A stretch of DNA of 64,000 bases from Rhizobiales bacterium 62-17 (lineage in GTDB: Bacteria; Pseudomonadota; Alphaproteobacteria; Rhizobiales; Beijerinckiaceae), in assembly GCA_001898965.1 (NCBI GenBank), contig MKVW01000001.1, positions 521,095-585,094 on the forward strand, read 5' to 3'. A program made the translations under genes and the position numbers. The stretch's first letter is position 1; each line of letters starts with the position of its first letter. The notes beneath the pieces were generated by a model that saw only the letters and a program-made list of their open reading frames with translations, was not told the origin of the DNA and did no database searches. Below are positions 47,807 through 64,000 of the stretch, piece by piece.

Positions 47807-48115
47807 ATGGAAATCGGTCTCACCCACTATCTGATCGTCGCTGCGATCCTGTTCACCATCGGGATCGCCGGCATCATCCTCAACCGCAAGAACATCATCA
47901 TCATCCTGATGTCGGTGGAATTGATCCTGCTGTCGGTGAACATCAACTTGGTCGCCTTCTCGACCTTCCTGGGCGATCTGACCGGCCAGGTCTTCTCCCT
48001 GTTCATTCTGACGGTTGCCGCTGCCGAGGCAGCGATCGGTCTGGCCATTCTCGTCACCTATTTCCGCAACCGCGGCTCCATCGCGGTTGAAGACATCAAT
48101 ATGATGAAGGGCTGA
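47807..48115 (+). CDS. nuoK: NADH-quinone oxidoreductase subunit K
   Basis: A 102-residue subunit with three helices. Conserved acidic residues for proton transfer lie in [16 protein letters not shown] and [20 protein letters not shown] with AGAGGAT upstream; eleven bases after nuoJ. Confidence 0.97.
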
Positions 48116-48121
48116 GGGCGC

Positions 48122-50145
<2,024 letters not shown>

Positions 50146-50146
<1 letters not shown>

Positions 50147-51657
50147 TGTTCGGCTTCGGTCTTCTCTCCGGCCTGATTTTCCTGCCGCTCGTCGGCGCGG
50201 CCTTCATTCTGCTGCTGCGTGGCGAGAGTGAAGCGACGCTCAGCAACGTCCGTTGGGCGGCGCTGCTGACGACGGTCGTCACCTTCCTTCTGTCGCTCTA
50301 TGCCTGGAGCCTGTTCGATACGAATTCCTCAGCCTTTCAGCTCGTCGAGGAGAAGAGCTGGCTCGGCAGCGGCCTGATCTACAAGCTCGGCGTCGATGGC
50401 ATGTCCATGCCCTTCGTCCTGCTGACCACCTTCCTGATGCCGTTCTGCATCCTGGCGTCGTGGGAATCGATTACTTTCCGCGTCAAGGAATATATGATCG
50501 CCTTCCTGGTGCTCGAGACGCTGATGATCGGCGTCTTCTGCGCTCTCGATCTGGTGCTGTTCTATCTGTTCTTCGAAGGCGGCCTGATCCCGATGTTCCT
50601 CATCATCGGCATCTGGGGCGGCAAGCGCCGCATCTATGCGAGTTTCAAGTTCTTCCTCTACACGTTGCTCGGTTCGCTCCTGATGCTGCTCGCCATCATG
50701 GCGATGTATGGCGTCGCCGGCACCACCGACATCACCGTTCTCCTGAAGACGACTTTCCCGTCGTCAATGCAGAAGTGGCTGTGGCTTGCCTTCTTCGCTT
50801 CTTTCGCGGTGAAGATGCCGATGTGGCCGGTCCACACCTGGTTGCCCGATGCGCACGTCGAGGCGCCGACGGCCGGTTCGGTCATTCTGGCCGGCATTCT
50901 CCTGAAGATGGGCGGGTACGGTTTCATCCGTTTCTCGCTGCCGATGTTCCCGGAAGCGTCGCAATATTTCGCGCCGTTCGTGTGGACCCTGTCGGTCATC
51001 GCCATCGTCTACACGTCGCTGGTGGCGCTGGTGCAGGAGGACATGAAGAAGCTCATCGCCTATTCGTCCGTGGCGCATATGGGCTTCGTCACCATGGGCC
51101 TGTTCGCCATGAACCAGCAGGGCGTGCAGGGTGCCATCTATCAGATGATCAGCCATGGCCTAGTCTCGGGCGCGCTCTTCCTTTGCGTCGGTGTCGTTTA
51201 CGATCGCCTGCACACCCGCGAGATCGCCGCCTACGGCGGTCTGGTGCGCAACATGCCGCTCTATGCGGTGGCCTTCATGATCTTCACCATGGCCAATGTC
51301 GGCCTGCCGGGCACCTCGGGCTTCGTCGGTGAATTCCTGACCCTGATTGGTACCTTCTTCGCCAATGCTTGGGTGGGCCTCATCGCCACCACTGGCGTCA
51401 TCCTCTCGGCCGCTTACGCGCTTTATCTCTATCGCCGCGTGATCTTCGGCGTGCTCGACAAGCCGTCGCTGATGAAGATGCAGGATTTGAACGCCCGTGA
51501 GATCGCCTGTCTAGCTCCGCTCGCTTTGCTGGTCATCTATTATGGCGTCCAGCCGGGCCCGATCCTGAGCGCCTGCGCGGCCTCAGTCGATCTACTCATC
51601 AAGAACTATCAGACGGCGCTCGGCCTGACCAAGGCCGCCACGCTGGCGCTGCACTGA
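50146..51657 (+). CDS. nuoM: NADH-quinone oxidoreductase subunit M
   Basis: A 503-residue antiporter-like proton-pumping subunit. Conserved: [56 protein letters not shown] and [13 protein letters not shown]. Its ATG overlaps the nuoL TGA. Normal length. Confidence 0.97.
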
Positions 51658-51661
51658 GGAT

Positions 51662-53101
51662 ATGGACATGACCCCGCTTTCCTTCGCGCTGGCCCATTCG
51701 CTTCCGGAGATCGTTCTGGCGATCGGCGCGCTCGTCCTCTTGATGATGGGCGCTCTGCGCCGTCCGAAGGGCGATTGGATCATCAGCGAATGCGCTATCG
51801 CGCTGCTCGGTCTTGCCGCGCTCAGCATGTTGTTTCAGGTCGGCCCCACCGCCATCATCTGGGACGGTGCCTTCATCGACGACGCCTTCGCCCGGTTCAT
51901 GAAGTTCCTGGCGCTCGGTGGCGCCATGGTGTCGCTGATCTTGTCACGTGAATTCATGGCGCGCGAGCAAATCGACTTCTTCGAGTTCCCGATTTTGGTC
52001 TTGCTCGCCACGCTCGGCATGCTGATGCTGATCTCGGCCCAGAGCTTGATCGCGCTCTATCTCGGCCTCGAGCTGATGAGCCTGGCGCTCTATGTCATCG
52101 CCGCTTTCCACCGCACCAATCTGCGTGCGTCGGAAGCCGGCCTGAAATATTTCGTCCTCGGCGCGCTGTCGTCGGGCATGCTGCTCTATGGCGCTTCGCT
52201 GCTCTATGGCTTCGCCGGCACCGTGTCCTTCACCGGCATTGGCGAAGCTCTCAAGGGCGGCCCGTCGATTGGCGTCGTCTTCGGCCTGGTCTTCGTCATG
52301 GCCGGTCTCGCTTTCAAAATGTCGGTCGTGCCATTCCACATGTGGACGCCGGACGTTTATGAAGGCGCACCGACTCCGGTGACGACCTTCTTCGCCTCGG
52401 CAGCGAAAATGGCAGCCGTCGCCATCACCGTGCGCATCGTCATGACCGCTTTCCCGGGCATGAAGCTGCAATGGCAGCAGATCGTCGTCTTCATCTCGAT
52501 CCTGTCCATGGCCATCGGTGCCTTCGGCGCCATCGGCCAGACCAACATCAAGCGGCTGATGGCCTATTCGTCGATCGGTCACATGGGCTTCGCGCTGGTC
52601 GGCCTCGCCGCCGGCACGGAGCAGGGCGTGTTCGGCGTATTGGTCTATATGGCGATCTATCTCGCCATGACGCTCGGCACCTTCGCCGTCATCCTGTCGA
52701 TGCGGGTAGGCAACACCTATGTCGAGAACATCGGTGACCTCGCCGGCCTGTCGCGCAATCACAAGTTCATGGCTTTCGTGATGGCGATGATGATGTTCTC
52801 GCTGGCTGGCATTCCGCCGCTCGCGGGTTTCTTCGCCAAATGGTATGTCTTCCTGGCGGCTATCAAGGCGAACCTTTACTGGCTGGCCGTCATCGGCATG
52901 CTCGCCAGCGTGGTTTCGGCCTTCTACTATCTGCGCGTCATCAAGATCATGTATCTCGACGAGCCGGCGCGGCCCTTCGAAAAGGCCAATTGGGAAGTCA
53001 GTGCGATCGTCGCGCTCGGCGGCCTGTTCGTTGTCCTGTTCTGGGTTTATCCGGCGCCGCTGGTAAACGCCGCGAGCCTCGCCGCCAAATCCTTGTTCTG
53101 A
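51662..53101 (+). CDS. nuoN: NADH-quinone oxidoreductase subunit N
   Basis: A 479-residue antiporter-like subunit. Conserved: LYLGLELMSLALYVIAAFHR, FKMSVVPFHMWTPDVYEGAPTPVTTFFASAAKMAA and SSIGHMGFALVG. It is the last core complex I gene; the downstream genes follow at short distance on the same strand. Confidence 0.97.
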   Translation: MDMTPLSFALAHSLPEIVLAIGALVLLMMGALRRPKGDWIISECAIALLGLAALSMLFQVGPTAIIWDGAFIDDAFARFMKFLALGGAMVSLILSREFMAREQIDFFEFPILVLLATLGMLMLISAQSLIALYLGLELMSLALYVIAAFHRTNLRASEAGLKYFVLGALSSGMLLYGASLLYGFAGTVSFTGIGEALKGGPSIGVVFGLVFVMAGLAFKMSVVPFHMWTPDVYEGAPTPVTTFFASAAKMAAVAITVRIVMTAFPGMKLQWQQIVVFISILSMAIGAFGAIGQTNIKRLMAYSSIGHMGFALVGLAAGTEQGVFGVLVYMAIYLAMTLGTFAVILSMRVGNTYVENIGDLAGLSRNHKFMAFVMAMMMFSLAGIPPLAGFFAKWYVFLAAIKANLYWLAVIGMLASVVSAFYYLRVIKIMYLDEPARPFEKANWEVSAIVALGGLFVVLFWVYPAPLVNAASLAAKSLF

Positions 53102-53133
53102 TCCCAAGTCCTGTTCTGACCCAAAGCTCCTCA

Positions 53134-53913
53134 TTGTCCATCGCCGCATTCCGTTTCGAACATTTCTCCGAAATCGCTTCGACGAATGATGCGGCGATGG
53201 CGCGGGCACGCAGCGGTGACGCCGGCCACCTCTGGCTCTCGGCCGATGTGCAGACATCAGGCCGCGGGCGCCACAATCGGCCCTGGACTTCGCCGTCGGG
53301 CAATCTCTACGCCAGCCTGCTGCTGATCGATCCCTCGGTTCCAGCCAAGGCGCCGCAGCTTGGCTTCGTCGCCGGTGTTGCACTCGTCGATGCGCTGCGC
53401 GATTTCGCGCCCGATATCAAATTCGCTCTGAAATGGCCCAACGACATTCTTGTTGGCCAGGCGAAGCTCGCGGGCATTCTCCTCGAAGGCTCGTCCTTGC
53501 CGGACCAGCGATTTGCCTGCGTGCTCGGCTGCGGCATCAATTGTGCCAACCATCCTGATGGTCTCGCTTATGCCGCGACCGATCTGAAGGCGCTGGGCCT
53601 TGAAGTGGCGCCCTCCATGCTTCTCCAGGCGCTTGCCATCACCTTCACGCGCTGGCTCGATGTGTGGGCGGCGGGGGAGGGCTTTGCCTTCATCCGCGCC
53701 GCTTGGCTCGAACGGGCCGCCGGTCTGGGTGGGCCAGTGCGGGTCAATCTTGGCGGGCAGATGCACGAGGGCCGTTTCGCCGATATGGATGCCGCCGGCC
53801 GTCTCATTCTCGATAAGCCGGATGGGCGCGTGACAATCGACGCGGGGGATGTATTTCTGGGACCGGTCAATCGGCCGCCAAACGAAAATGGACAAGGAGC
53901 GCCCGGCAGATGA
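53134..53913 (+). CDS. birA: Biotin--[acetyl-CoA-carboxylase] ligase
   Basis: About 259 residues, a catalytic-only (group I) biotin protein ligase without the DNA-binding domain of E. coli BirA, so it should not act as a repressor. Signature TSGRGRHNRPWTSPSGNLYASLLL binds biotinyl-AMP, and LKWPNDILVGQAKLAGILLEG carries the catalytic Lys. No ATG is well placed; I propose the TTG at 53134, just before the first conserved strand, with no clear ribosome site. The gene overlaps RNase J by four bases. Confidence 0.9.
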   Translation: MSIAAFRFEHFSEIASTNDAAMARARSGDAGHLWLSADVQTSGRGRHNRPWTSPSGNLYASLLLIDPSVPAKAPQLGFVAGVALVDALRDFAPDIKFALKWPNDILVGQAKLAGILLEGSSLPDQRFACVLGCGINCANHPDGLAYAATDLKALGLEVAPSMLLQALAITFTRWLDVWAAGEGFAFIRAAWLERAAGLGGPVRVNLGGQMHEGRFADMDAAGRLILDKPDGRVTIDAGDVFLGPVNRPPNENGQGAPGR

Positions 53914-55580
53914 CCGATAGCAACACCGATCTGGTTTTTGCCCCGCTGGGTGGCCTTGGCGAGATCGGCATGAATGCGGCGCTCTACGGCTTTGGTCCGA
54001 AGGGGCGGCGCAAATGGCTGATGGTCGATCTCGGCGTCGCCTTCGCCGGGCCGGAACTGCCGGGCATCGATCTCGTTCTGCCCGATCTTGCCTTCATCGA
54101 ACGCAATCGCAAGGATCTCGTCGGCCTCGTTATCACCCATGCCCATGAAGATCATATTGGTGCGGTGGCGCGGCTGTGGCCGCGCATCGGCTGCCCACTT
54201 TATGCGACGCGTTTCGCCGCCGGTCTGCTCGAAGTGCGGCGTTTGGGCGAGGATGGTGCGCCGAAAGTGCCGATCCATATCGTTCGCCCCGGCGAGCGCA
54301 TCGATCTTTCGCCTTTCGAGGTGGAGATGGTACCTGTCGCCCATTCGATCCCCGAGAGCACCGCGCTTGCCATCCGCACGCCGCTTGGCACGGTGCTGCA
54401 TTCGGGCGATTGGAAGATCGATCCGACGCCCGTCGCCGGGTGGGCGACCGACGAGGCGCGGCTGCGCGCCATCGGCGATGAAGGCGTGTTGGCGCTGATC
54501 AGCGATTCCACCAACATCCTGCGCGATGGCGAAAGCCCGTCCGAAGCCGACGTGGCCGCCAATCTGGAAAATCTCATCGCCGAAGCGCCGAACCGTGTGT
54601 TGGTGACAACCTTCGCGTCGAATGTTGCCCGTATGCGTGCTGTAGCCTTGGCGGCGGCACGTGCCGGACGCCACGTCGTCATCGCTGGCCGTGCCATGGA
54701 CCGGGTTTCGAACGTGGCGCGCGAATGCGGCTATCTCGACGGCGTGCCGGATTTCCTGCCGGCGGAAAGCTTTGCCAATCTGCCGCGCAGCAAGATCGTC
54801 ATCATGGCGACCGGCAGCCAGGGCGAGGGCAGGGCGGCCATGGCCCGCATCGCCAACGACGATCATCCGCAGGTGCGCCTCGCGTCCGGCGATCGCGTCA
54901 TCTTCTCGTCGCGGCCGATCCCTGGCAACGAGCGGGCCATCAACGACATCGTCAATGGTCTGGTGCGCCAGGGCATCGAGGTCATCACCGACCGCACCAA
55001 CCTCGTTCATGTCTCCGGCCATCCGCGCCGCAGCGAAGTGAAACACCTTTATGAGTGGATCCGTCCACGTATCGCCATTCCCGCTCACGGCGAGGCGCTG
55101 CATCTGAGCGAACACGCCCGCTTTGCCCGCGAACAAGGCGTCGCCGAGACGCTCGTCGTCAACAATGGCGATCTCGTTCATCTGGCACCGGGCGTTGCCG
55201 GCATCATCGATCAGGTCGATCATGGCCGTCTCTATACCGATGGTGATCTGATTGTTCCCTCCGATGACGAGGCGCTGCGCGAACGTCGTGGTCTCTCCTT
55301 TGCCGGCATTATTTCGGTTGGCGTTGCGATGACGGCCAAGGGCGATCTTGCTGGCGATCCCGATGTGGTGATCTCGGGTATTCCCCAACGCACGCGCGAC
55401 GGTCGCGCCATGGATGCGATCATCGACAAAGCGGTGTTTGAGGTGTTGGAAGGCTTGCCACGCGCCCGCCGCCGCGATCCCGATGCAGTAGAATCGGCGG
55501 TGGAACGAGCCGTGCGCAGCGCCGTCCGCGCTGTGTGGGGCAAACGCCCGACGGTGCACGTGCTGGTGATGGAGGTCTAG
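53910..55580 (+). CDS. rnj: Ribonuclease J
   Basis: A 556-residue metallo-beta-lactamase/beta-CASP ribonuclease with 5'-to-3' exonuclease and possible endonuclease activity. The metal motif is THAHEDHIGAV, then MVPVAHSIPEST and LHSGDWKID; the beta-CASP part includes TFASNVARM and TGSQGEGRAAMARI, and a C-terminal HVSGHPRRSEVKHLYEWIRP. RNase J is used for rRNA 5'-end maturation and mRNA decay in Rhizobiales. ATG overlaps the birA stop. Confidence 0.95.
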   Translation: MTDSNTDLVFAPLGGLGEIGMNAALYGFGPKGRRKWLMVDLGVAFAGPELPGIDLVLPDLAFIERNRKDLVGLVITHAHEDHIGAVARLWPRIGCPLYATRFAAGLLEVRRLGEDGAPKVPIHIVRPGERIDLSPFEVEMVPVAHSIPESTALAIRTPLGTVLHSGDWKIDPTPVAGWATDEARLRAIGDEGVLALISDSTNILRDGESPSEADVAANLENLIAEAPNRVLVTTFASNVARMRAVALAAARAGRHVVIAGRAMDRVSNVARECGYLDGVPDFLPAESFANLPRSKIVIMATGSQGEGRAAMARIANDDHPQVRLASGDRVIFSSRPIPGNERAINDIVNGLVRQGIEVITDRTNLVHVSGHPRRSEVKHLYEWIRPRIAIPAHGEALHLSEHARFAREQGVAETLVVNNGDLVHLAPGVAGIIDQVDHGRLYTDGDLIVPSDDEALRERRGLSFAGIISVGVAMTAKGDLAGDPDVVISGIPQRTRDGRAMDAIIDKAVFEVLEGLPRARRRDPDAVESAVERAVRSAVRAVWGKRPTVHVLVMEV

Positions 55581-55985
55581 GTGATCGGACGGCTCAACCA
55601 TGTCGCCATCGCTGTGCCCGATCTGACCGCCGCCGCGCGGACCTATCGCGACACGCTCGGCGCCAAGGTATCGGAGCCGCAGGCGCTGCCGGAGCATGGC
55701 GTCATGGTCGTCTTCGTCGAATTGCCGAACACCAAGATCGAACTGCTCGAGCCGCTGGGCACCTCGTCGCCCATCGCCAAGTTTCTCGAGAACAATCCGT
55801 CCGGCGGCATGCATCATGTCTGCTACGAGGTCGATGACATTCTGGCTGCGCGCGACCGTCTGAAAGCGGCAGGCGCCCGCGTGCTGGGCGATGGCGAGCC
55901 GAAGATCGGCGCCCACGGCAAGCCGGTGCTTTTCCTGCATCCCAAGGATTTCTGCGGCACCCTGGTCGAGATCGAACAGGTTTAG
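55581..55985 (+). CDS. mce: Methylmalonyl-CoA epimerase
   Basis: A 134-residue enzyme of the vicinal oxygen chelate fold that interconverts the R and S forms of methylmalonyl-CoA. Metal ligands can be placed at H7 (LNHVAIAVPDL), the His in MHHVCYEVDD and the Glu in GTLVEIEQV; NTKIELLEPLG is also conserved. The start is GTG directly after the RNase J stop. Position after rnj is common in Rhizobiales. Confidence 0.94.
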   Translation: MIGRLNHVAIAVPDLTAAARTYRDTLGAKVSEPQALPEHGVMVVFVELPNTKIELLEPLGTSSPIAKFLENNPSGGMHHVCYEVDDILAARDRLKAAGARVLGDGEPKIGAHGKPVLFLHPKDFCGTLVEIEQV

Positions 55986-56066
55986 CGGCCTTACGAGACA
56001 TCCCGCCGCCTTGATGTGCTGGCCGGCCCGTGCGACCTCTTGGCGAGAAGTCAGCGAGGGGCGGAC

Positions 56067-56714
56067 ATGGATAGTGTGGCTGTGGCATGCGGTTGGGCCG
56101 GCACGGCGCTTGCCGTCGCGGCGTTCTGGCCAAAGACGATCATGCCGTTGCGCTGGCTGATGGTGGCCGCCAGCCTGTTCGCGATCATCTATTTCGCCTG
56201 GGAGCGGAGCTGGCTGCCTCTTGGCGCTAATGTGCTGATCTTGTTTCTCAACCTGTGGCGGCTGCAGGAAATGCGCAAACTGATCGCCGACGCGGAAAAG
56301 GCCAATCGTGAGGACCTGAATTTCGACTGGCTTACGCCGTATATGCAGGCGGTCTCATTCGAGGCCGGCGAAACCCTGTTCAACAAGGATGACGAGGCCG
56401 ACGCGGTCTATGTGCTGGCCGAAGGCCAGCTCAACCTGCCGGAACTGGGCATTATTATCGGTCCGGGGGCCTTGATCGGCGAAATGGGCCTGTTCTCTGT
56501 GGGCAACCGCCGCCTGTCCGGTGCCCGGGCCATGGGCCCGGTACGGGCCTACCGTATGGCCTATCGCGATTTCGAGCAGCATTATTTCCAGAATCCGCAA
56601 TTCGGCCTTTATCTGGTCCGCCTGATGGTGCGCCGGCTGGAAAGCAATCTGTCGCGCTATTCCGGTGGCAAGGCCGGACCAGCCGGCGCCGCCACGCCTC
56701 GTCCACAGCACTAA
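56067..56714 (+). CDS. Membrane protein with cyclic nucleotide-binding-like domain
   Basis: About 215 residues. Residues 1-70 contain two or three hydrophobic helices (VAVACGWAGTALAVAAFW, LRWLMVAASLFAIIYFAW), a layout like Popeye-domain proteins. Residues about 90-190 form a cNMP-binding domain (FEAGETLFNKDDEADAVYVLAEG, GALIGEMGLFSVGNRRLSGARA). The phosphate cassette keeps the GE and an Arg but is not a perfect consensus, so ligand binding is uncertain. The ATG at 56067 has GCGAGGGG upstream. Function unknown; it follows the epimerase by 81 bp. Confidence 0.8.
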   Translation: MDSVAVACGWAGTALAVAAFWPKTIMPLRWLMVAASLFAIIYFAWERSWLPLGANVLILFLNLWRLQEMRKLIADAEKANREDLNFDWLTPYMQAVSFEAGETLFNKDDEADAVYVLAEGQLNLPELGIIIGPGALIGEMGLFSVGNRRLSGARAMGPVRAYRMAYRDFEQHYFQNPQFGLYLVRLMVRRLESNLSRYSGGKAGPAGAATPRPQH

Positions 56715-56752
56715 ACAGTTAAGGTCAAGAAAGAAGGACGCGAAAGCCCGTT

Positions 56753-56977
56753 ATGTCGATACCGCTCGCAATTGCCCTCTTCATCACCATCTGGTGGACG
56801 GTTTTGTTTGCCGTTCTGCCTTTTGGCGTGCGTTCCCAGCACGAACAGGGCGATATGGTCGCCGGCACCGACCCAGGCGCCCCTGTAGCGCCCCGCCTGC
56901 TGATCAAAGCACTCTGGACCACCGTCATTTCGGCGGTCATTTTTTGCGGCTTTCTGGCTTATGTCGAATTCGCCTGA
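56753..56977 (+). CDS. DUF1467 family protein
   Basis: A 74-residue membrane protein with two helices (LAIALFITIWWTVLFAVLPFG and LWTTVISAVIFCGFLAYV) joined by a loop VRSQHEQGDMVAGTDPGAPVAP. This is the pattern of the DUF1467 family, which is found next to the epimerase gene in many Rhizobiales. Function unknown. A hairpin follows ten bases after the stop. Confidence 0.88.
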   Translation: MSIPLAIALFITIWWTVLFAVLPFGVRSQHEQGDMVAGTDPGAPVAPRLLIKALWTTVISAVIFCGFLAYVEFA

Positions 56978-56986
56978 GCCAGCCCA

Positions 56987-57007
56987 AGAGGCGGCGGAAC
57001 CGCCTCT
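56987..57007 (+). terminator. Hairpin after the DUF1467 gene
   Basis: Stem AGAGGCGG / CCGCCTCT (8 bp) with loop CGGAA, ten bases after the stop. No T tract follows, so termination strength is uncertain. It would end the long run that starts at nuoA. Confidence 0.6.
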
Positions 57008-57017
57008 AAAGGGAGCC

Positions 57018-57040
57018 GCTGACTCTTAATCAGCAGGTCT
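57018..57040 (+). other. tRNA-Lys(CTT)-like anticodon-arm remnant
   Basis: GCTGA-CTCTTAA-TCAGC (57018-57034) is a perfect 5-bp stem with a 7-base loop and the Lys anticodon CTT, followed by AGGTC as in a variable region. No D-arm or T-loop consensus can be found around it, so it is a decayed fragment, about 100 bp before intact tRNA-Lys(TTT). The rest of 57041-57141 shows nothing more. Confidence 0.55.
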
Positions 57041-57141
57041 GGTAGGGGATTAGCACCTCCAGCTATTGACCCCAGGGGCCCCGGCGGATACTCAGGCCCC
57101 GCCTCGTTTATTCGAGGCCCCGCATCGGCCTTTGGCCACGG

Positions 57142-57217
57142 GAGCGCGTAGCTCAGCCGGTAGAGCATCTGACTTTTAATCAGGAGGTCCTGGGTTCGAG
57201 TCCCAGCGCGCTCACCA
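57142..57217 (+). tRNA. tRNA-Lys (anticodon TTT)
   Basis: 76 nt. Acceptor GAGCGCG pairs with CGCGCTC, discriminator A and encoded CCA. Anticodon loop CTTTTAA gives TTT. T-arm CTGGGTTCGAGTCCCAG is perfect. Its 3' end (57191-57221) is repeated at 60809-60839. Confidence 0.97.
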
Positions 57218-57221
57218 CTTA
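57191..57221. repeat. Left direct repeat (attL-like), 3' end of tRNA-Lys
   Basis: 31 bases covering the T-arm, acceptor 3' strand, CCA and four bases beyond. It matches 60809-60839 in the same orientation at 29 of 31 positions. Confidence 0.65.
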
Positions 57222-57236
57222 GGGTGGTGATTTTAT
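57213..57236 (+). terminator. Terminator of tRNA-Lys
   Basis: CACCAC (57213-57218) and GTGGTG (57224-57229) form a 6-bp stem with loop TTAGG, followed by ATTTTATT. The 5' arm is the tRNA CCA end itself. Confidence 0.75.
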
Positions 57237-57301
57237 TATAGAAATCGACGAGACGCTTCGGGCGCGTGGAGGCTGGATCGCGCTGCGAGTTCCGCCGTGC
57301 G

Positions 57302-58099
57302 TCATCGCGTCCAATTCACGCTTGCCGCAAGAAAGGCCGTGCGCAACGCAGCGGCATTCTCGGGCTCGAACAGCGTCTCGTGATTGCCCGGAATATCGAT
57401 GATGCGAAGGTCGGGGCAGCGTCTACGCCAAAGGCTGTCGGCCGACGTAGTCACGCGCGTGCGCAACAGAACGGTCGGTGCTCGCAGAACGGCGGGGTGA
57501 TCATCGAGGCTTCCCATCCACGTGGCTGCCATGCGGATTCGCAGCCGCATGCTCAATTCTTCCGCAAAGGTCGGATCGATCATGCCAATCCGATGAAACG
57601 GCGCGGCGTGACCCCGCGCCAGCGCGGGCAATCCATCTCCGGCAAGGCGAAACAAACCGCGCCAGGCGAGATGCCGAGCGTGGAGTGCAAGTGCGCCGGG
57701 ACGTCCGCGCCGCAGGAGGTCTAGCGCGTGGGAGGTCAGCCGCGCCTTCCACTGTGCTGATCGCGCTGCTGTAATGGTTCCGGCGTCGATGATGCACAAG
57801 CCCGCGACACGGTGGCCTAGGCTTTCGAGACGAAGAGCGGCCGCATGGGCGAAATGGCCGCCGATCGAAACACCGACCAGCACGACCGGCATCTGAGGAG
57901 CGCGGCGCAGGATCTCCGCCGTGAGAGTTCCGACCAGTGCTTCTCCGGAGAGTCCGGCGTCGACATGGTTCTGCCAAGGTGGATAGCGAAGCGCGACGAC
58001 ACGATCCCGGTCCGCCGCGTCGGCAGAGAATAATGCTCTATCAGGCGCGTGACCGCTCGCGCCCGGCAGGACGATGATCGGCGGGCGCACGGCGTTCAT
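57302..58099 (-). CDS. Alpha/beta hydrolase, thioesterase-like
   Basis: A 265-residue protein, last gene of the three-gene cassette. The nucleophile elbow is GVSIGG with S78, and the C-terminal block DIPGNHETLFEPENAAALR with H240 closely resembles the thioesterase domains of nonribosomal peptide and polyketide synthases; TWMGSLDDHPAV may supply the acid. It begins VLPGASGHAPDRALF, a typical oxyanion strand and loop. Its start overlaps the stop of the FAD gene (ATGA), so the two are coupled. A role in releasing or cleaving a product made by the ligase and oxidase is inferred from context. Confidence 0.85.
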   Translation of the reverse strand: MNAVRPPIIVLPGASGHAPDRALFSADAADRDRVVALRYPPWQNHVDAGLSGEALVGTLTAEILRRAPQMPVVLVGVSIGGHFAHAAALRLESLGHRVAGLCIIDAGTITAARSAQWKARLTSHALDLLRRGRPGALALHARHLAWRGLFRLAGDGLPALARGHAAPFHRIGMIDPTFAEELSMRLRIRMAATWMGSLDDHPAVLRAPTVLLRTRVTTSADSLWRRRCPDLRIIDIPGNHETLFEPENAAALRTAFLAASVNWTR

Positions 58100-59298
58100 G
58101 TGTAGGCCGCGCTGGTGCGGGACAACGCCGTGGCGATCGTGCGAGCGGTGTACTCGGCGCCGGCGACGAACCGGAACACCGGGCCGAAGCTCATCGACGA
58201 TGCGGGGCCGACGAAGCGCAGGCCCGGGACGGAGGACTGGAAGGACGCATCGAGCCGTGGCGCGGTGCCTTGCCGGGCAATGGCATGACGCAGATCGGGC
58301 TCCAGAAACGGGATGCGCTCGACGTTCACCTCGTAGCCCGTGCCGGCGATCACACGATCCACGAGCAACTCGCGATCGCTCTTGTTTCCGCCCCGCCGCA
58401 AGCGCAGCGATACGCGATGGCCGTTCTCCCGGGCCTCGACGACGGTTGTATCATGTTCGACCGGTACGAGTGTCTCGACCCGCTCACGAAGCCACCATGC
58501 CCCTTCTGGTGGCAGCAGGTTTTCAATGAAGCGCGCGCGCAAGCAGGGTGGCAGCCGGTGAAACGCACCGGGCAACTGCGACAGCGCCCATGCCTTCGGA
58601 CTGCCGCCCAGCGCGGAAATTGGCCAACGGATCCGCTGCCAGGGCGTCCGCGTGCGGCTGCCCTGGATCATCCATAGGGTCGACGGTTTGCGGATCAGCA
58701 ATCGCGGCGCAGCACCGGCTTCACGGAGCAAGGCAGCCGCTTCGAGCGCGGACTGGCCGGAACCGATGACTGCAACTTCGAGGCCTTGAAAGGCAGCGAA
58801 ACTCTCGATCCAGGCGCTGTGCATGGCGGCTGTTCCAGGCAGCGCCTGCAAGGCCTGCGGCATCCTCGCGAAGTTTGCGAGTCCCGTGGCGACGATGACA
58901 TCCGACGCTTCGACCTCCTCACCATTGTCGAGCGTCAGGACGAAGCTCTGACGACGCCAGGACACGTTCGCGACGTCCACGGGCTCGGTCCAATCGACGT
59001 TGTGCTCCTGAAACCAAAGGCCGTATGATGCAAAATTTTCGATGGAACATGGCTCGAATGTCTCCAGGCCACGCGGTCCGTTGTAGTCAGCGAATGTCGA
59101 GCCCGGGTGCGGCGACGAGATGTTCGTGCCGAAGCAGTAGGACTTGAGATAGCGTCGCGACCCGGCACGGGCGATCTGACTCCAGAAGGCCATGGGCCGG
59201 CCGAAAATCCGGTGCGCGACATTGCGAGCTGCGAGATGGCTCGCGAGCGACAGCCCGTAAGGGCCGCCGCCGATGATCGCGACGCATGGCTTGCTCAT
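58096..59298 (-). CDS. FAD/NAD(P)-binding monooxygenase-like protein
   Basis: A 400-residue flavoprotein with two nucleotide motifs: FAD site VAIIGGGPYGLSLASHLA (G10-G15) and NAD(P) site VAVIGSGQSALEAA (G179-A184), plus VIAGTGY near the end, the layout of flavin monooxygenases and ornithine/lysine N-hydroxylases. SRRYLKSYCFGTNISSP resembles the COG2072 group. The typical FMO fingerprint FxGxxxH is not exact (LPGTAAMH). The ATG at 59298 is two bases after the ATP-grasp stop; a longer frame reaching 59478 is inside that gene. Second gene of the cassette. Confidence 0.87.
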   Translation of the reverse strand: MSKPCVAIIGGGPYGLSLASHLAARNVAHRIFGRPMAFWSQIARAGSRRYLKSYCFGTNISSPHPGSTFADYNGPRGLETFEPCSIENFASYGLWFQEHNVDWTEPVDVANVSWRRQSFVLTLDNGEEVEASDVIVATGLANFARMPQALQALPGTAAMHSAWIESFAAFQGLEVAVIGSGQSALEAAALLREAGAAPRLLIRKPSTLWMIQGSRTRTPWQRIRWPISALGGSPKAWALSQLPGAFHRLPPCLRARFIENLLPPEGAWWLRERVETLVPVEHDTTVVEARENGHRVSLRLRRGGNKSDRELLVDRVIAGTGYEVNVERIPFLEPDLRHAIARQGTAPRLDASFQSSVPGLRFVGPASSMSFGPVFRFVAGAEYTARTIATALSRTSAAYT

Positions 59299-59300
59299 GG

Positions 59301-60608
59301 TCACAGCCCACGCGCGATCGGGGGAGCGGATGGGAGCATGGTCCGCACGAAGCGCGGCGCTGCCCGAAATCCGAGATAGAGCTCGGAGAGGATATGGACG
59401 ATGCCCGGCATCGGATCTTGGCGATTGGAAGCGAAATGGACCATGTGCGCGCGGTTCTGCCGCGCCCAGCGTCGCCAATGTGCCAGATCCTCGAGACGTA
59501 TCCGCATGCAGAGCGTCTGCGCGAGCAGGATCGCATGAAGGGTGAAATTGTCACAGAAAGCGGTTTTTTCGGTTGGGTCTTCGTGCTGCGCCTCGGCCGC
59601 AAGCGCTCGCACCGCGTCGGTCTCGCCGAGGGCGTCCAAGTAAGCCAGCATCGGCAGTGGCAGCCCACGGCGCAGGTCGAGGCCAATCTGGTTGAACAGG
59701 CGCGGGTTGAAATCGATGACCGTCCAGGCGCCGTCATGCAGGATGAACTCGACCTCGAACAATCCAAAATAGCCGAGTTCTCGACACAGGCGGTAGACGG
59801 CCTGCGACAGTGCGGGATCGGCCGCGCACGACTCGTAGCAGACGCCCACCCCTACCGGTCGCGACCGCTGAAGGATTTTGGTCGAACGTCGCGTCACGAA
59901 CACATCGGCGCTCCGTCCGATGAAGCCGGAGATGGAAACCACGCCTTCGCGCCCGACATCGACAAATTTCTGAATCACCGGACGCACCGCGCTGGGCGCG
60001 CGCGCCGTGTCGTCAAAACCGTGCCGCTCGCGAGCCAGGAAGCGTGGATATTCCGCAGCGAGTTCGTCCGGAGAATGCACGACCATGCCCTTGTCGTTTC
60101 GCAGACGATGGACATGGGTGCGGGGCTTGATCAGCACCGGATAAGGCAGATGCGGCGCCAATTCGGCAAGTTCGTCGGTGTTCTGCGGATCCCAGCTCGG
60201 CAGGACCGCGACGCCGGCGATTGTTGCAGCCTTTTCAAGCAGCGCCTTGTCGAGGATGCGTTTGATCGTCTCGACCGGAGGTTGATACAGGCGGAAATAG
60301 CGATCGAGGAGCGGTGCGTTGAAGGTATAAAGCCAGACCAATTCATCTGAAGTCGGCAGCAGCAGCTGCCCGGGATCGCGCTTTCCGATCGCGAGCAGCC
60401 CATCAAGATAGCGTATATTGTCGCTTTCGACCGGCCCGGCGTAACGGCGCCCGGCGAAGCGCGACCAACCAGCCACGCAAAAAGGGTGGTCGACGATCAC
60501 GTTGACGCCGACGCCGAAACGGGCGAGGTGGCGCATGGCCGCGATCGTTCCCCCCGAGGATGCCGATCCCAACAGTACGGGGGGCCGCTTCAGATTGGGT
60601 CCGCTCAT
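59301..60608 (-). CDS. ATP-grasp family carboxylate ligase
   Basis: A 435-residue enzyme. An N-terminal preATP-grasp domain (VLLGSASSGGTIAAMRHLARFG) precedes the ATP-grasp core: K161 in YPVLIKPRTH for ATP, and the magnesium and phosphate residues E285/E287, D299, N301 and R303 in LFEVEFILHDG and VIDFNPRLFNQIG. The C-terminal 90 residues are not recognised. Such enzymes join a carboxylate to an amine or thiol through an acyl phosphate. It is first in the cassette, followed by the FAD gene after two bases. Substrates are unknown. Confidence 0.88.
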   Translation of the reverse strand: MSGPNLKRPPVLLGSASSGGTIAAMRHLARFGVGVNVIVDHPFCVAGWSRFAGRRYAGPVESDNIRYLDGLLAIGKRDPGQLLLPTSDELVWLYTFNAPLLDRYFRLYQPPVETIKRILDKALLEKAATIAGVAVLPSWDPQNTDELAELAPHLPYPVLIKPRTHVHRLRNDKGMVVHSPDELAAEYPRFLARERHGFDDTARAPSAVRPVIQKFVDVGREGVVSISGFIGRSADVFVTRRSTKILQRSRPVGVGVCYESCAADPALSQAVYRLCRELGYFGLFEVEFILHDGAWTVIDFNPRLFNQIGLDLRRGLPLPMLAYLDALGETDAVRALAAEAQHEDPTEKTAFCDNFTLHAILLAQTLCMRIRLEDLAHWRRWARQNRAHMVHFASNRQDPMPGIVHILSELYLGFRAAPRFVRTMLPSAPPIARGL

Positions 60609-60808
60609 GCCGACCGTCCTCGCAAGTGGAACGCTGCCCTATAAACGCACCACTATCGCGCCGCGGCGCCGCGCTCCGGGGAATATTTTCAGCCGGTTCA
60701 CGCGATCCTGCGTCCAATCGAAAAGCGCAACCGGTTGCGCGGACAAGAATATTTGTCGCTTTCCGAGCGAAAACGCTCTTCGAGCACCTTCGGACGTGAG
60801 AAAGGCTT

Positions 60809-60839
60809 TGGGTTCGAGCCCCAGCGCTCTCACCACTTA
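60809..60839. repeat. Right direct repeat (attR-like), tRNA-Lys 3' fragment
   Basis: Matches the tRNA-Lys 3' end (57191-57221) with changes only at positions 11 and 20. It is followed by a decayed copy of the tRNA terminator (CACCAC, TTAAA, GTGCTG). The 5' part of a tRNA is missing. The rest of the gap 60609-60877 has no gene; 60715-60765 holds a Lys/Arg-like AT-richer stretch of no clear meaning. Confidence 0.65.
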
Positions 60840-60877
60840 AAGTGCTGGTTTCAGATCAGCAGCCTAGGATAGGGACC

Positions 60878-61669
60878 TTATTTTATCCTGGCTCGAATCC
60901 TCTGAGCATTGTCATGAACAAAGCGAAGCAAGGCTTTCGCGCCCTTGCTCTCGGGCTGCGTCGTGAAGGTTTCCGATATCCCGAATACCGTCACCGCAAG
61001 AGGCGGGGCCTGACCGCCGCTGTCGACCATTCCCGTCATCGAGCTGATGCCCTTGATGTGATCGCCATCGGTGAAGGCAAGCGGCGAACGTTGAAGACTA
61101 TCGAGTCGATTGAGGAAGTTTGTTCGCAGGGTTGCAAGTGCGCGGGGCGCATGGCCCAAGGCGCGCAAGCGCTTCTGCTCCTTCGCGATGAAGGCCAGCA
61201 TTTTTTCTTCTGGCAGGCGTGACAGGAACATCTTGCCGGTTGAGGAGCTGAAGGCAGCGAGATGCCCAGCCTGCTTCGGCCTGACGGAGATCGGTTCATC
61301 CGATTCTTCCACATGCAGAATCTTCGGCCCGGCATCCTGCCATTCGGAAATGAAGGTCGTGTGGCCAACCTCTTTCACGAACTGGGGGAGACGCTCGCGA
61401 ATGATGTCGAGCGCGATCGCTTTGGCCGAGGCCTGCGCGCTCGATCCATCTGCATAGCGATAGGACCCGCGGCCTTCCTGCACGGCAAAGCCTGCGCGCA
61501 CCAGGCTGATGCAGTAGCGATGCAATTTGCTGGGCGCCATCCCGCATTTGTCGGACAGATCGCCGAGCGCAATCGGACCGGGCTCATCCCGCAGTAGACG
61601 CAGAATGGCGAGACCGTTCTCCAGCGACCCGATCCCTCGCGCCTCGTCGTTCGCCATGCGGTTTGACAT
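60878..61669 (-). CDS. IclR family transcriptional regulator
   Basis: A 263-residue regulator. Winged helix: IGSLENGLAILRLLRDEPGPIALGDLSDKCGMAPSKLHRYCISLVRAGF. Effector domain: AFSSSTGKMFLSRLPEEKMLAF and IKGISSMTGMVDSGGQAPPLAVTVFG. The start is placed at 61669; a second ATG four codons later is possible. Divergent from the MetE-like gene at 61745, with an inverted repeat between them. It resembles the IclR protein at 18207 in layout and neighbourhood. Confidence 0.92.
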   Translation of the reverse strand: MSNRMANDEARGIGSLENGLAILRLLRDEPGPIALGDLSDKCGMAPSKLHRYCISLVRAGFAVQEGRGSYRYADGSSAQASAKAIALDIIRERLPQFVKEVGHTTFISEWQDAGPKILHVEESDEPISVRPKQAGHLAAFSSSTGKMFLSRLPEEKMLAFIAKEQKRLRALGHAPRALATLRTNFLNRLDSLQRSPLAFTDGDHIKGISSMTGMVDSGGQAPPLAVTVFGISETFTTQPESKGAKALLRFVHDNAQRIRARIK

Positions 61670-61682
61670 CCTATCCGTTTTA

Positions 61683-61720
61683 TTTCACCATTAGATAAAT
61701 AAATTTTACTATAGGTGAAA
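61683..61720. promoter_or_regulatory. Inverted repeat between IclR and MetE-like genes
   Basis: TTTCACC (61683-61689) and GGTGAAA (61714-61720) are exact inverted arms around a 24-base A/T-rich centre. They are bracketed by near-repeats ATCCTATCC (61668-61676) and ATCCTATTC (61721-61729). The position fits an operator of the divergent IclR protein. Confidence 0.55.
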
Positions 61721-61744
61721 ATCCTATTCAAGTGGAGGACGTTC

Positions 61745-62800
61745 ATGGCTGCGGAGATATTGCTGGTCGGAAGCATTCCCTATGACACGAATGAAGAAGT
61801 GTTCCGGGAATTCGGGCCGGCATTGGCATCGTCTCTGGTGGCGATGCCGGATGGTGAGGTCGGTCCACGTAGCCATTGGATCAGCCGCGTTCATTATGCG
61901 GTGTTTGCCAACCATCCTGACCTTGAAACGCTGCGACAGCCTGCGAAAGAAGGCGGTGTCGAACGTCTTCATCCACGTGATGCCGGCGACAGTTGGCAAT
62001 TCAGAGTGCGCGACGGGATCGAGACGGTCGCTTTCGGCGACAAGGGATGGCGTCTGGGTTATGCCCGCGATGCGATCAACTCCTATTTCATCTTCAAAGC
62101 CTTGCGTGCTGAGGGCTTATATCCGGCTGGAATGCGCTTTCAGGTGTCGGTGCCTTCGGTCAACAGCGCCGTGCCTTACCGGATATTTCCCGATCAGGAT
62201 GACGTCGAGAAAGTTCGTCGCGGCTATGTCGAAGCGTTGAAAGCTGAATTGGAGACCATCGTCCGCCACATTCCAGCGCGCGATCTTGCCATCCAGCTCG
62301 ACTGCGCGAGCGAAGTGCAGGATGCCTATGGCGCTATTGCCGGGCAGCCAGCTGCAACTGCCATTGATCGCAATACACCGCAAATCCAAGCGTTACTGTC
62401 TTGGATACCGCATGACGTCTTGGTGGGCTTCCATATGTGCTTTGGCACCCTCGGAGGCTGGCCGCGCTTCGAGCCGGAGGACATTTCCGGTGCCGTTTTG
62501 ATGGCGAATGCCTTCGTCCGCGCAGCCGGTCGTCCGGTCGGCTGGATGCATATCCCGCTCTTGGCGCGCATGGACGAGGCCTTCTATGAGCCCCTGCGTG
62601 GGCTCGAACCGAACGGCGCGCGTGTTTTTCTTGGCATGGTGCACAGTATGGAGAGCTATCCGGCGCGCCTCGCGATTGTGAGGAAGTTGGTGCCTGATTT
62701 CGGCGTCGCTGCCTATTGCGGGTTCGGCCGCCTCAATCCTTCGCAATTGCCAGCGATCCGTCAACAGCATCTCGATGCGCTACGCCTTCTCCACGGGTGA
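61745..62800 (+). CDS. MetE/UROD-like TIM-barrel protein
   Basis: A 351-residue protein. It is not an obvious member of a named enzyme family, but it keeps the pattern of the MetE C-domain: LAIQLDCASEV (central strand), H230 and C232 in GFHMCFGTLGG, E303 in VHSMESYP and C325 in AAYCGFGRLN, which match H, C, E and C of the methionine-synthase zinc site and the paralog at 14692. A thiol methyltransferase activity is thus possible. The ATG at 61745 has GTGGAGG upstream. First gene of a divergent pair with IclR, followed by a Bug protein. Confidence 0.75.
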   Translation: MAAEILLVGSIPYDTNEEVFREFGPALASSLVAMPDGEVGPRSHWISRVHYAVFANHPDLETLRQPAKEGGVERLHPRDAGDSWQFRVRDGIETVAFGDKGWRLGYARDAINSYFIFKALRAEGLYPAGMRFQVSVPSVNSAVPYRIFPDQDDVEKVRRGYVEALKAELETIVRHIPARDLAIQLDCASEVQDAYGAIAGQPAATAIDRNTPQIQALLSWIPHDVLVGFHMCFGTLGGWPRFEPEDISGAVLMANAFVRAAGRPVGWMHIPLLARMDEAFYEPLRGLEPNGARVFLGMVHSMESYPARLAIVRKLVPDFGVAAYCGFGRLNPSQLPAIRQQHLDALRLLHG

Positions 62801-62852
62801 TGCCCGAGGTGTGAAGGCATAGCGACATCGTTATCTTGGGGAGGAAGAAACG

Positions 62853-63815
62853 ATGAAGGCACTTGTTTATGCAGGGCTCCTAGCTTTGATGGCGACGGGC
62901 TACGGACAGGCCCAGGACTATCCAACCAAGCAGGTAACGATCATCACCCCCGGCACGCCAGGGAGTACGTCCGATCTGATGCCACGCGTCATCGCCGACG
63001 AACTCACGCCGCGCCTGGGAAAACCCGTGGTGGTCGAGAATCGATCGGGTGGCAGCGGATTGGTATCGGCCAATTCGGCGCTGGGCCAGCCGGCTGATGG
63101 CCATACTCTATGGTTCGGGACGATGGGCACGACGACGATCAATCCTTTCGTCATGGACGATATGCCGTTTGACTCCTTGAAAGCCTGGACACCGATCGCC
63201 GAGGCGGGCTCGATGCCGCTCGTCCTGGTGGTCAATCCCGAGAAGACCCCCGTCAAGGACCTGGCGGAATTGATCGCCTATGCCAAAAGCCATCCAGGAA
63301 AGGTGACGTTTGGTTCAGCCGGTATCGGTTCGTCTTATGCGATCACGATGTTTCTTCTCGGCAACGAGGCCGGCGTGCAGTTCACTCACGTCCCCTATAA
63401 GGGAACTGCACCGGCCGTGAGTGATGTGCAAGCTGGAGAGTTGACGGTGATGGTTCCCGACGTCGGCCTCGTGCGGTCGCAAATCGAAAGCGGCAAGCTG
63501 CGCGCTCTGGCGGTCACGACGGCGAAGCGGCTCGACATGCTGCCGAATGTCCCGACCTTCAAGGAAGCGGGCTATAATATTGAAGTTTCGCTCTGGTACG
63601 GCTTCTTCGTCCGCTCCAATACGCCAGAGCCAATCGTCAAGAGGTTGGTCAGCGATCTCAAGGTCGCAATCCAAAGCCCGAACGTGAAGAAACGTTACGA
63701 GCCGTTGGCGCTCATCGTCGGCGATAAATTTGGCGATGATTTCGTGCGATATTATCGGTCGGAATATGAGCGCTGGGGCGCATTGGTGAAACCACTCAAC
63801 ATCCGCGCAAACTAG
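62853..63815 (+). CDS. Bug (TctC) family substrate-binding protein
   Basis: A 320-residue periplasmic binding protein. Signal peptide residues 1 to about 20 (ALMATGYGQA-QD). Family blocks: YPTKQVTIITPGTPGSTSDLMPRV, LGKPVVVENRSGGSG, VTFGSAGIGSSYAITM and VPYKGTAPAVSDVQAGELTV. ATG with GGGGAGGAAGAAA upstream. As at 15925, no TctA or TctB genes are adjacent. It probably binds a carboxylate related to the MetE-like gene before it. Confidence 0.93.
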   Translation: MKALVYAGLLALMATGYGQAQDYPTKQVTIITPGTPGSTSDLMPRVIADELTPRLGKPVVVENRSGGSGLVSANSALGQPADGHTLWFGTMGTTTINPFVMDDMPFDSLKAWTPIAEAGSMPLVLVVNPEKTPVKDLAELIAYAKSHPGKVTFGSAGIGSSYAITMFLLGNEAGVQFTHVPYKGTAPAVSDVQAGELTVMVPDVGLVRSQIESGKLRALAVTTAKRLDMLPNVPTFKEAGYNIEVSLWYGFFVRSNTPEPIVKRLVSDLKVAIQSPNVKKRYEPLALIVGDKFGDDFVRYYRSEYERWGALVKPLNIRAN

Positions 63816-63823
63816 CTACGCGG

Positions 63824-64000
63824 CTACCACGAATGATCGCGGCTGGCGGGCGGCGTCCAGATGCCCGCCTTCTGCAATTGCGAGAGCACGGGCGCAAGGC
63901 GTTTGGCCTCTTCCGGGCCCCACAGCAGCATGCGAAACGCAAAGCCGCCCATCAGATCGCAGTCGCGATGCAGTTCGATGATCTGCTCGACGATTTCGTT
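63824..64000 (-). CDS. C-terminal end of a gene cut by the window edge
   Basis: 58 codons open to the window end. The visible C-terminus reads EQIIELHRDCDLMGGFAFR followed by MLLWGPEEAKRLAPVLSQLQ. This vaguely resembles the end of luciferase-like (LLM) flavin monooxygenases, which often carry a similar WG-EEA stretch, but the piece is too short to be sure. It converges on the Bug gene with eight bases between stops. Confidence 0.5.
   Translation of the reverse strand, partial: NEIVEQIIELHRDCDLMGGFAFRMLLWGPEEAKRLAPVLSQLQKAGIWTPPASRDHSW

Follow-up and report, generated by a model that had tools for sequence, protein, structure and literature searches.

A three-gene cassette at tRNA-Lys is a rare form of a wider flavoprotein and ATP-grasp gene pair with a possible role in amide-type glycan modification

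The window analysed here, a 64,000-nucleotide stretch of contig MKVW01000001.1 from Rhizobiales bacterium 62-17, carries at positions 57302-60608 a cassette of three minus-strand genes that are transcribed in the order ATP-grasp ligase, flavoprotein and thioesterase-like hydrolase. We found that this trio is a rare form of a larger unit, a flavoprotein and ATP-grasp pair, and we tentatively read it as a mobile operon built on that wider two-enzyme module, with amide-type modification of a glycan as its favoured role.

The first gene (59301-60608, minus strand, 435 amino acids) encodes an ATP-grasp ligase-like protein, P0001. The second (58096-59298, minus strand, 400 amino acids counted from ATG) encodes a monooxygenase-like flavoprotein of the type that uses flavin adenine dinucleotide (FAD) and NAD(P)H, P0002, whose sequence as analysed carried one additional N-terminal T before the ATG-encoded start, and the third (57302-58099, minus strand, 265 amino acids) a thioesterase-like alpha/beta hydrolase, P0003, with the putative triad S78-D105-H240. 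A 2-base gap (tga-cc-atg) separates the ATP-grasp and flavoprotein genes and a 4-base overlap (ATGA) joins the flavoprotein and thioesterase genes; an earlier sequence-only reading of this DNA had given the same borders and junctions, and reading of the open reading frames (ORFs) showed them to be exact. That reading had also placed no transporter or regulator inside the cassette, with which we agree, as the nearest regulator by Pfam, an IclR gene at 60878-61669, lies outside it as the upstream neighbour on the cassette strand. Between the IclR gene and the trio there is a terminator-like consensus match (60740-60725; 7 matches in the whole region versus 3.7 in shuffles), and no match to a sigma-70-type promoter was found in 57100-61000. 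We likewise met no named pathway for the trio: among the NCBIfam rows listed (for P0002, the best 25 of 66) none reached its cut-off for P0001, P0002 or P0003, and the open-access literature, which leaves most subscription papers outside its scope, yielded no paper on either the pair or the trio. An anti-phage defence role was discarded because PADLOC matched none of the three proteins.

Relatives were collected by a genome-contig scan with six flavoproteins as query, from which the best 80 of at least 499 were kept, so that the set is biased towards close relatives and many of its loci are mutually related. ATP-grasp profiles, seeded from ORF clusters of the same loci with no use of position, were then searched in six frames over these 80 loci (1.37 Mb, E 1e-10). 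An ATP-grasp gene was present in 64 of them, lying within 200 bp of the flavoprotein gene in 54, within 600 bp in 3 more and within 1.7 kb in the last 7, and no ATP-grasp gene of the pair type was found farther than 1.7 kb away in any of the 80 loci at this threshold. The 16 loci without a match comprised 12 from Streptomyces, three short stretches (4.6-9.1 kb) and one locus from Mycobacterium. Of the Streptomyces loci (L061, L070, L072, L073, L097, L104, L106, L121, L123, L124, L126 and L128), eight were in a flavoprotein tree of 60 members and formed a single clade there (support 100/99); in this group the ATP-grasp partner has perhaps been lost or relocated. When the set was extended to 86 loci with L130, L032, L047, L048, L049 and the window, an ATP-grasp gene stood near the flavoprotein gene in 69, on the same strand in 54 of these 69.

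The pair is conserved in Pseudomonadota, Actinomycetota and Acidobacteriota. Outside the trio clade the flavoproteins are 37-44% identical to P0002 and the ATP-grasp partners only 13-24% identical to P0001, a difference which suggests that the substrates of the ligase vary around a constant oxidation step. A P0003-type thioesterase was nearby in just 4 of the 80 loci, the window providing a fifth trio, and all belong to one flavoprotein clade. Judged from these sequences, the conserved unit is the flavoprotein and ATP-grasp pair, to which a thioesterase was added in one clade. All our results are compatible with the enzyme classes, the operon and the synthetase-free amide chemistry that the sequence-only reading proposed, but it misjudged the conserved unit when it took this to be the trio.

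The four further trios come from a Bosea metagenome-assembled genome (L050), another Bosea (L051), a Bradyrhizobium from a metagenome (L052) and Bradyrhizobium sp. STM 3843 (L053). The gene order of the window is repeated in L050, L051 and L052, the 2-base gap in L050 and L051, and the ATGA overlap ahead of the thioesterase gene in L050, L051 and L052, while in L053 a methyltransferase-like gene on the opposite strand lies between the flavoprotein and thioesterase genes. The recurrence of the same trio in the same order indicates that the arrangement is not due to chance. Scattering of the three genes in relatives had been proposed as the check that would overturn the cassette, and the genes stay together in all five loci that hold all three, although the pair occurs mostly without a thioesterase. 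In the tree of 60 members the five trio flavoproteins formed a single clade with support 100/100 on a long branch. Comparing the window with L050, L051 and L052 gene by gene gave nine ratios of nonsynonymous to synonymous substitution rates (dN/dS), all within 0.14-0.32. All three genes are under purifying selection.

None of 50 other genomes of the same genus had an ATP-grasp match to P0001 better than E 1.5e-6, and a flavoprotein match at E 1e-15 was found in 6 of 397 genomes of the order, own genome included, the weakest at 1.4e-52. Plasmid records searched at E 1e-30 contained flavoprotein relatives of 35-41% only, in 6 records, and viral carriage was seen in one IMG/VR contig, L130 (34% identity), which we entered into counts only. 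Methyltransferase-like genes lie near the flavoprotein gene in four Hyphomicrobiales loci (L053:10184-11038, L032:8582-9442, L049:8877-9740 and L047:12153-12857); only that of L047 passed a Pfam cut-off and that of L049 had no Pfam match, and no such gene was found near the window trio.

In the window the cassette is bordered by the signature of an insertion at the 3' end of a tRNA gene with duplication of that end. The tRNA-Lys (TTT) gene at 57142-57217 on the plus strand (ARAGORN; Rfam RF00005, 75.8 bits) lies near one border, where the first copy of an att-like 43-nt direct repeat (57191-57233, plus strand) spans the tRNA-Lys 3' end and a terminator-like hairpin (57212-57230, followed by TTTTATT). 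The second copy (60809-60851, plus strand), 86% identical to the first, is a displaced tRNA-Lys 3' end at the far cassette border and also matches, at 88% identity, the tRNA-Lys tail of G022, the nearest relative found, whose similarity to the window runs to 57244 and gives way to no match in the remaining 15.6 kb compared. Similarity of the window DNA to L050 and L051 amounts to 79% and is confined to the trio (60611-57324 and 60611-57310 of the window, respectively), outside which the sole match at E 1e-5 is a 54-base stretch in L050. DNA similarity therefore stops at the cassette edges, placing the cassette at unrelated sites in the window and the two Bosea genomes. Pfam, run on 12 of the 18 ORFs in the 19.6 kb to the right, revealed no integrase, the other 6 ORFs being read by eye. 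From its sequence borders, the cassette in the window is an island at tRNA-Lys. The tRNA-Lys region (57142-57244) itself looks like an insertion hot spot, with other genes following it in G022, namely TctC-, aldolase- and adhesin-like ORFs (named by eye).

P0001 matched the Pfam family CPSase_L_D2 with 24.7 bits (cut-off 19.8). Its AlphaFold2 model, with a mean predicted local distance difference test (pLDDT) score of 89.7, has the ATP-grasp fold, and among the 50 Foldseek matches listed from the PDB 49 were biotin-dependent carboxylases and one a PurK-type enzyme, with template modelling (TM) scores to the query of 0.46-0.63. Acidic and Asn metal-binding residues are a hallmark of ATP-grasp enzymes, and E285/E287 and D299-x-N301 of P0001, like its VEF and DFNPR motifs, are identical in all five trio loci. 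When the family profile was compared with PDB sequences, carbamoyl-phosphate synthases ranked first, so that with biotin carboxylases as best structures and carbamoyl-phosphate synthases as best profile matches the class alone cannot decide between an amide-forming and a carboxylating enzyme. PF13535 had no match in the own genome. L031, a more remote ATP-grasp relative, has flippase-like, sulfotransferase-like and acetyltransferase-like genes as neighbours (names read from sequence by eye).

P0002 exceeded several Pfam cut-offs, among them those of Pyr_redox_3 (57.4 bits, cut-off 30) and Lys_Orn_oxgnase (47.4 bits, cut-off 21.3). Its AlphaFold2 model (pLDDT 94.1) has the predicted overall fold of an N-hydroxylating flavin monooxygenase, and all 50 Foldseek matches listed from the PDB were N-hydroxylating monooxygenases (best E 1.8e-22, TM to query 0.69-0.77). 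In global mode, hhalign aligned the P0002 family with canonical Lys_Orn_oxgnase proteins (11 from other genomes, 12 having been fetched and L202 left out) at 99.95% probability over 368 columns. The motifs GxGPxG/N for FAD, GxGxS for NADPH and TGY are named for N-hydroxylating monooxygenases, although such dinucleotide and TGY motifs also occur in FMO-type relatives; all three are present in the family, where G11, G13, P14, G16, G180, G182, S184, T321 and G322 are invariant across 60 aligned members, Y323 is conserved in at least 90%, and the motifs line up with those of canonical proteins. The PF13434 match (47.4 bits) covered residues 88-193 only and not the full length, and at E 1e-60 this family had no match in the source genome G000 and a match in 10 of 120 genomes of the phylum. 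A lysine that contacts the substrate carboxylate is a feature of PvdA and SidA, and a conserved LKS lies near its expected position; since hhalign placed a gap there and a sub-profile search of the PDB around the region returned no match, we dropped the substrate-lysine argument for N-hydroxylation. Thioredoxin reductase was rejected as the identity of P0002, as the sequence has no CxxC. We therefore describe P0002 as an N-hydroxylase-like flavin monooxygenase with putative chemistry, a description that draws on its sequence and its modelled structure.

P0003 matched the Pfam Thioesterase family PF00975 with 39.6 bits (cut-off 26.4), and Ser78, Asp105 and His240 are identical in all five trio loci. 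Among 249 sampled genomes of the order 8, own included, had a match at E 1e-6; the other 9 matches, in 7 genomes (L181-L189), were 27-31% identical, and 8 of the 9 lay in long frames of 747-983 amino acids. Two of these relatives were examined, of which L182 combines AMP-binding, carrier and thioesterase domains and L187 has a thioesterase domain only. No plasmid-borne close copy of the thioesterase was matched at E 1e-5.

The neighbourhoods of the wider family are what pointed to glycans. Representatives of recurrent neighbour groups included a bacterial sugar transferase, glycosyltransferases, UDP-glucose dehydrogenase, polysaccharide deacetylase and GH18. With seven glycan profiles seeded from ORF clusters, one protein per cluster being checked by Pfam, at least one profile was matched in 40 of the 80 loci, including 37 of the 64 pair loci, and once glycosyltransferase overlaps had been merged to give five classes, 33 loci had at least two classes and 21 at least three. 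The Bac_transf profile (E 1e-10) matched 9 of 39 loci (40 even-numbered loci, L074 left out), compared with 0.23 expected from the genome-wide density in the same 39 genomes (PF02397 at E 1e-20, 94 matches in 268.5 Mb). Five annotated plasmid regions were read from six matching records, a second Bradyrhizobium barranii record being left out. The flavoprotein gene and one for an ATP-grasp or carboxylate-amine ligase lie among polysaccharide genes (sugar transferase, glycosyltransferase, Wzz, flippase, export or asnB) on the plasmids of B. barranii, Granulicella (pACIX902) and Mesorhizobium; in Granulicella pACIX904 the pair is present with fewer such genes, and on the Streptomyces mirabilis plasmid the flavoprotein has no annotated ATP-grasp gene within 12 kb. 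The two Bradyrhizobium trios also have glycan-type genes within their 19-kb loci, Poly_export and WecG in L053 and GT2 and Asn_synthase in L052.

Glycan profiles in half of the loci favour an amide-type glycan modification over a free small molecule, and the "small amide-type natural product" of the sequence-only reading is for the same reason neither the only reading nor, in our view, the likeliest. Several observations nevertheless weigh against a glycan target. The other 40 loci match none of the seven profiles, L053 among them despite its Poly_export and WecG, and Pfam on 98 neighbour proteins from 25 loci (23 of the 40 profile-negative loci, L099 and the viral contig L130) gave a mixture of 143 families with none dominant; among the 25 families listed, polyprenyl synthetase was matched by 4 proteins and GT2, Wzz and GDP-mannose dehydratase by 2 apiece. 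Most of the glycan-rich loci come from related actinomycetes and are thus not independent. The window (48001-64000), L050 and L051 match no glycan profile; glycosyltransferase, sugar transferase or export genes of an exopolysaccharide cluster are not adjacent in the window, and the nearest glycan gene seen, a polysaccharide deacetylase (L212:9315-10184), lies about 9 kb past the far cassette border, too far to be part of the cassette. With no glycan genes beside the cassette, the glycan reading is only tentative for the window. Nor does guanine plus cytosine content mark the cassette as foreign, being 0.62-0.64 in the 2-kb bins of 56001-60000 and 0.59-0.64 in the window.

The trio might instead be a self-contained route to a free small molecule, such as an N-oxidised amide, a hydroxamate or a dipeptide-like compound, which the thioesterase releases or edits. 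The isolation of the trio with sharp edges in the window and both Bosea genomes would fit this, and so would a thioesterase of the type found with non-ribosomal peptide and polyketide synthetases, its triad intact, whose nearest other relatives are thioesterase domains, one of the two examined standing behind AMP-binding and carrier domains as in carrier-bound small-molecule chemistry; many of the N-hydroxylases that are the nearest folds of the flavoprotein are, moreover, siderophore enzymes. Nevertheless, the cassette has no carrier protein or transporter, and the pair, mostly without a thioesterase, matches glycan profiles in more than half of its loci. We consider a free small molecule a credible but doubtful explanation and rank it second to glycan modification, although the evidence is not decisive.

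Another alternative concerns the flavoprotein, which could be a reductase or a C- or S-oxidising enzyme, the amide being made and then reduced, desaturated or oxidised elsewhere. A profile search of PDB sequences ranked FNR/TrxR-type chains first, and by sequence the family scored YpdA, FMO and thioredoxin-reductase-type proteins above N-hydroxylases, two results that also count against our preferred reading. At E 1e-10 the NCBIfam model of YpdA matched 57 of 60 family members and that of ArsO 28 of 60, P0002 itself lying far under both cut-offs (37 versus 339.9 bits and 29.3 versus 425 bits), and the N-hydroxylase substrate lysine could not be placed. The missing CxxC, the uniformly N-hydroxylating Foldseek matches listed and the conserved GxGxS and TGY motifs speak against such an enzyme, which we regard as unlikely. 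Even less probable is that the cassette is a decaying passenger of the tRNA-Lys island with no current function: the integrase missing from the ORFs run through Pfam, the drift of the second tRNA copy and the lack of a close ATP-grasp copy in the 50 other same-genus genomes could be signs of decay, but the low dN/dS of every comparison and the intact frames and catalytic motifs of all five loci speak against it.

Under the glycan modification that we prefer, the ATP-grasp enzyme would, as its class suggests, activate a carboxylate with ATP and join it to an amine, and the N-hydroxylase-shaped flavoprotein would oxidise the amine partner, or else the product, at a nitrogen or another heteroatom. 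The thioesterase, added in one clade, would probably serve in acyl release, transfer or editing. The most likely target would be a cell-surface or exported glycan whose uronic or other acid group becomes an amide, and in the window genome, where the operon would have arrived as a tRNA-Lys island, it may act in trans on the host's own glycan. A bolder version, which we think improbable as a whole, is that an undescribed two-enzyme module of three phyla places N-oxidised amides, for example metal-binding hydroxamates, on exported polysaccharides, and that the Hyphomicrobiales clade with a thioesterase has turned it into a self-contained mobile cassette. Conserved enzyme pairs without a named pathway are a promising place to look for new chemistry; here the flavoprotein relatives are numerous, with most of the best 80 having an adjacent ligase gene, the chemistry lends itself to direct assay, and the trio, as a compact form, could be moved intact into a laboratory host for expression. 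If polysaccharide modification were true, oxidised amide chemistry would be added to bacterial glycans.

The other neighbours of the cassette, by Pfam and ARAGORN, are the tRNA-Lys, TctC and an unnamed 361-residue protein (61715-62800). The last has no Pfam or NCBIfam match and belongs to a conserved unnamed family, with matches in 21 of 51 same-genus genomes including its own, at most 63% identity elsewhere and several copies in some genomes. Between the cassette and minC, at about 582000-600300 of G000:C1 (L212:1-18427), lie some 18 kb of accessory genes, among them a luciferase-like monooxygenase, a class III aminotransferase, LysR, the polysaccharide deacetylase and ABC transport genes, possibly a continuation of the island.

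Each of the three proteins resembles a known system in part. P0003 is like the type II and NRPS thioesterases (PF00975) in its above-cut-off match and Ser-Asp-His triad, and unlike them in its setting, as the cassette has no synthetase or carrier protein. The N-hydroxylating flavin monooxygenases PvdA, SidA, KtzI and SsDesB (PF13434) are the nearest solved folds of P0002 over nearly the full length and share with its family two dinucleotide-binding motifs (the second GxGQSA in the consensus) and TGY, whereas P0002 is only 14-20% identical to them, matches PF13434 partially and is non-canonical at E 1e-60. Its cassette also differs from siderophore N-hydroxylase systems in having no siderophore assembly genes. 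An ATP-grasp enzyme whose role is unclear has been described in a siderophore cluster (PMC12305651). The sugar-transfer associated ATP-grasp family PF14397 and ATPgrasp_Ter, PF15632, are matched by few members of the ATP-grasp family (3 and 5 of 58, respectively, at E 1e-5), and P0001 itself falls under the PF15632 cut-off (14.1 versus 29.1 bits), with PF14397 not among its matches listed. Closest in chemistry is the capsule of Campylobacter jejuni, where the TupA-like ATP-grasp domain Cj1438C is reported to amidate glucuronic acid with serinol or ethanolamine phosphate as amines and a phosphatase as partner (PMC11800379). The partner here is a flavoprotein instead, and the two systems are likened by description and not by sequence, yet the ATP-grasp fold of the Cj1438 C-terminal domain and its uronic-acid amide chemistry within a polysaccharide cluster make Cj1438C, by analogy, the best mechanistic precedent for the glycan amidation proposed here.

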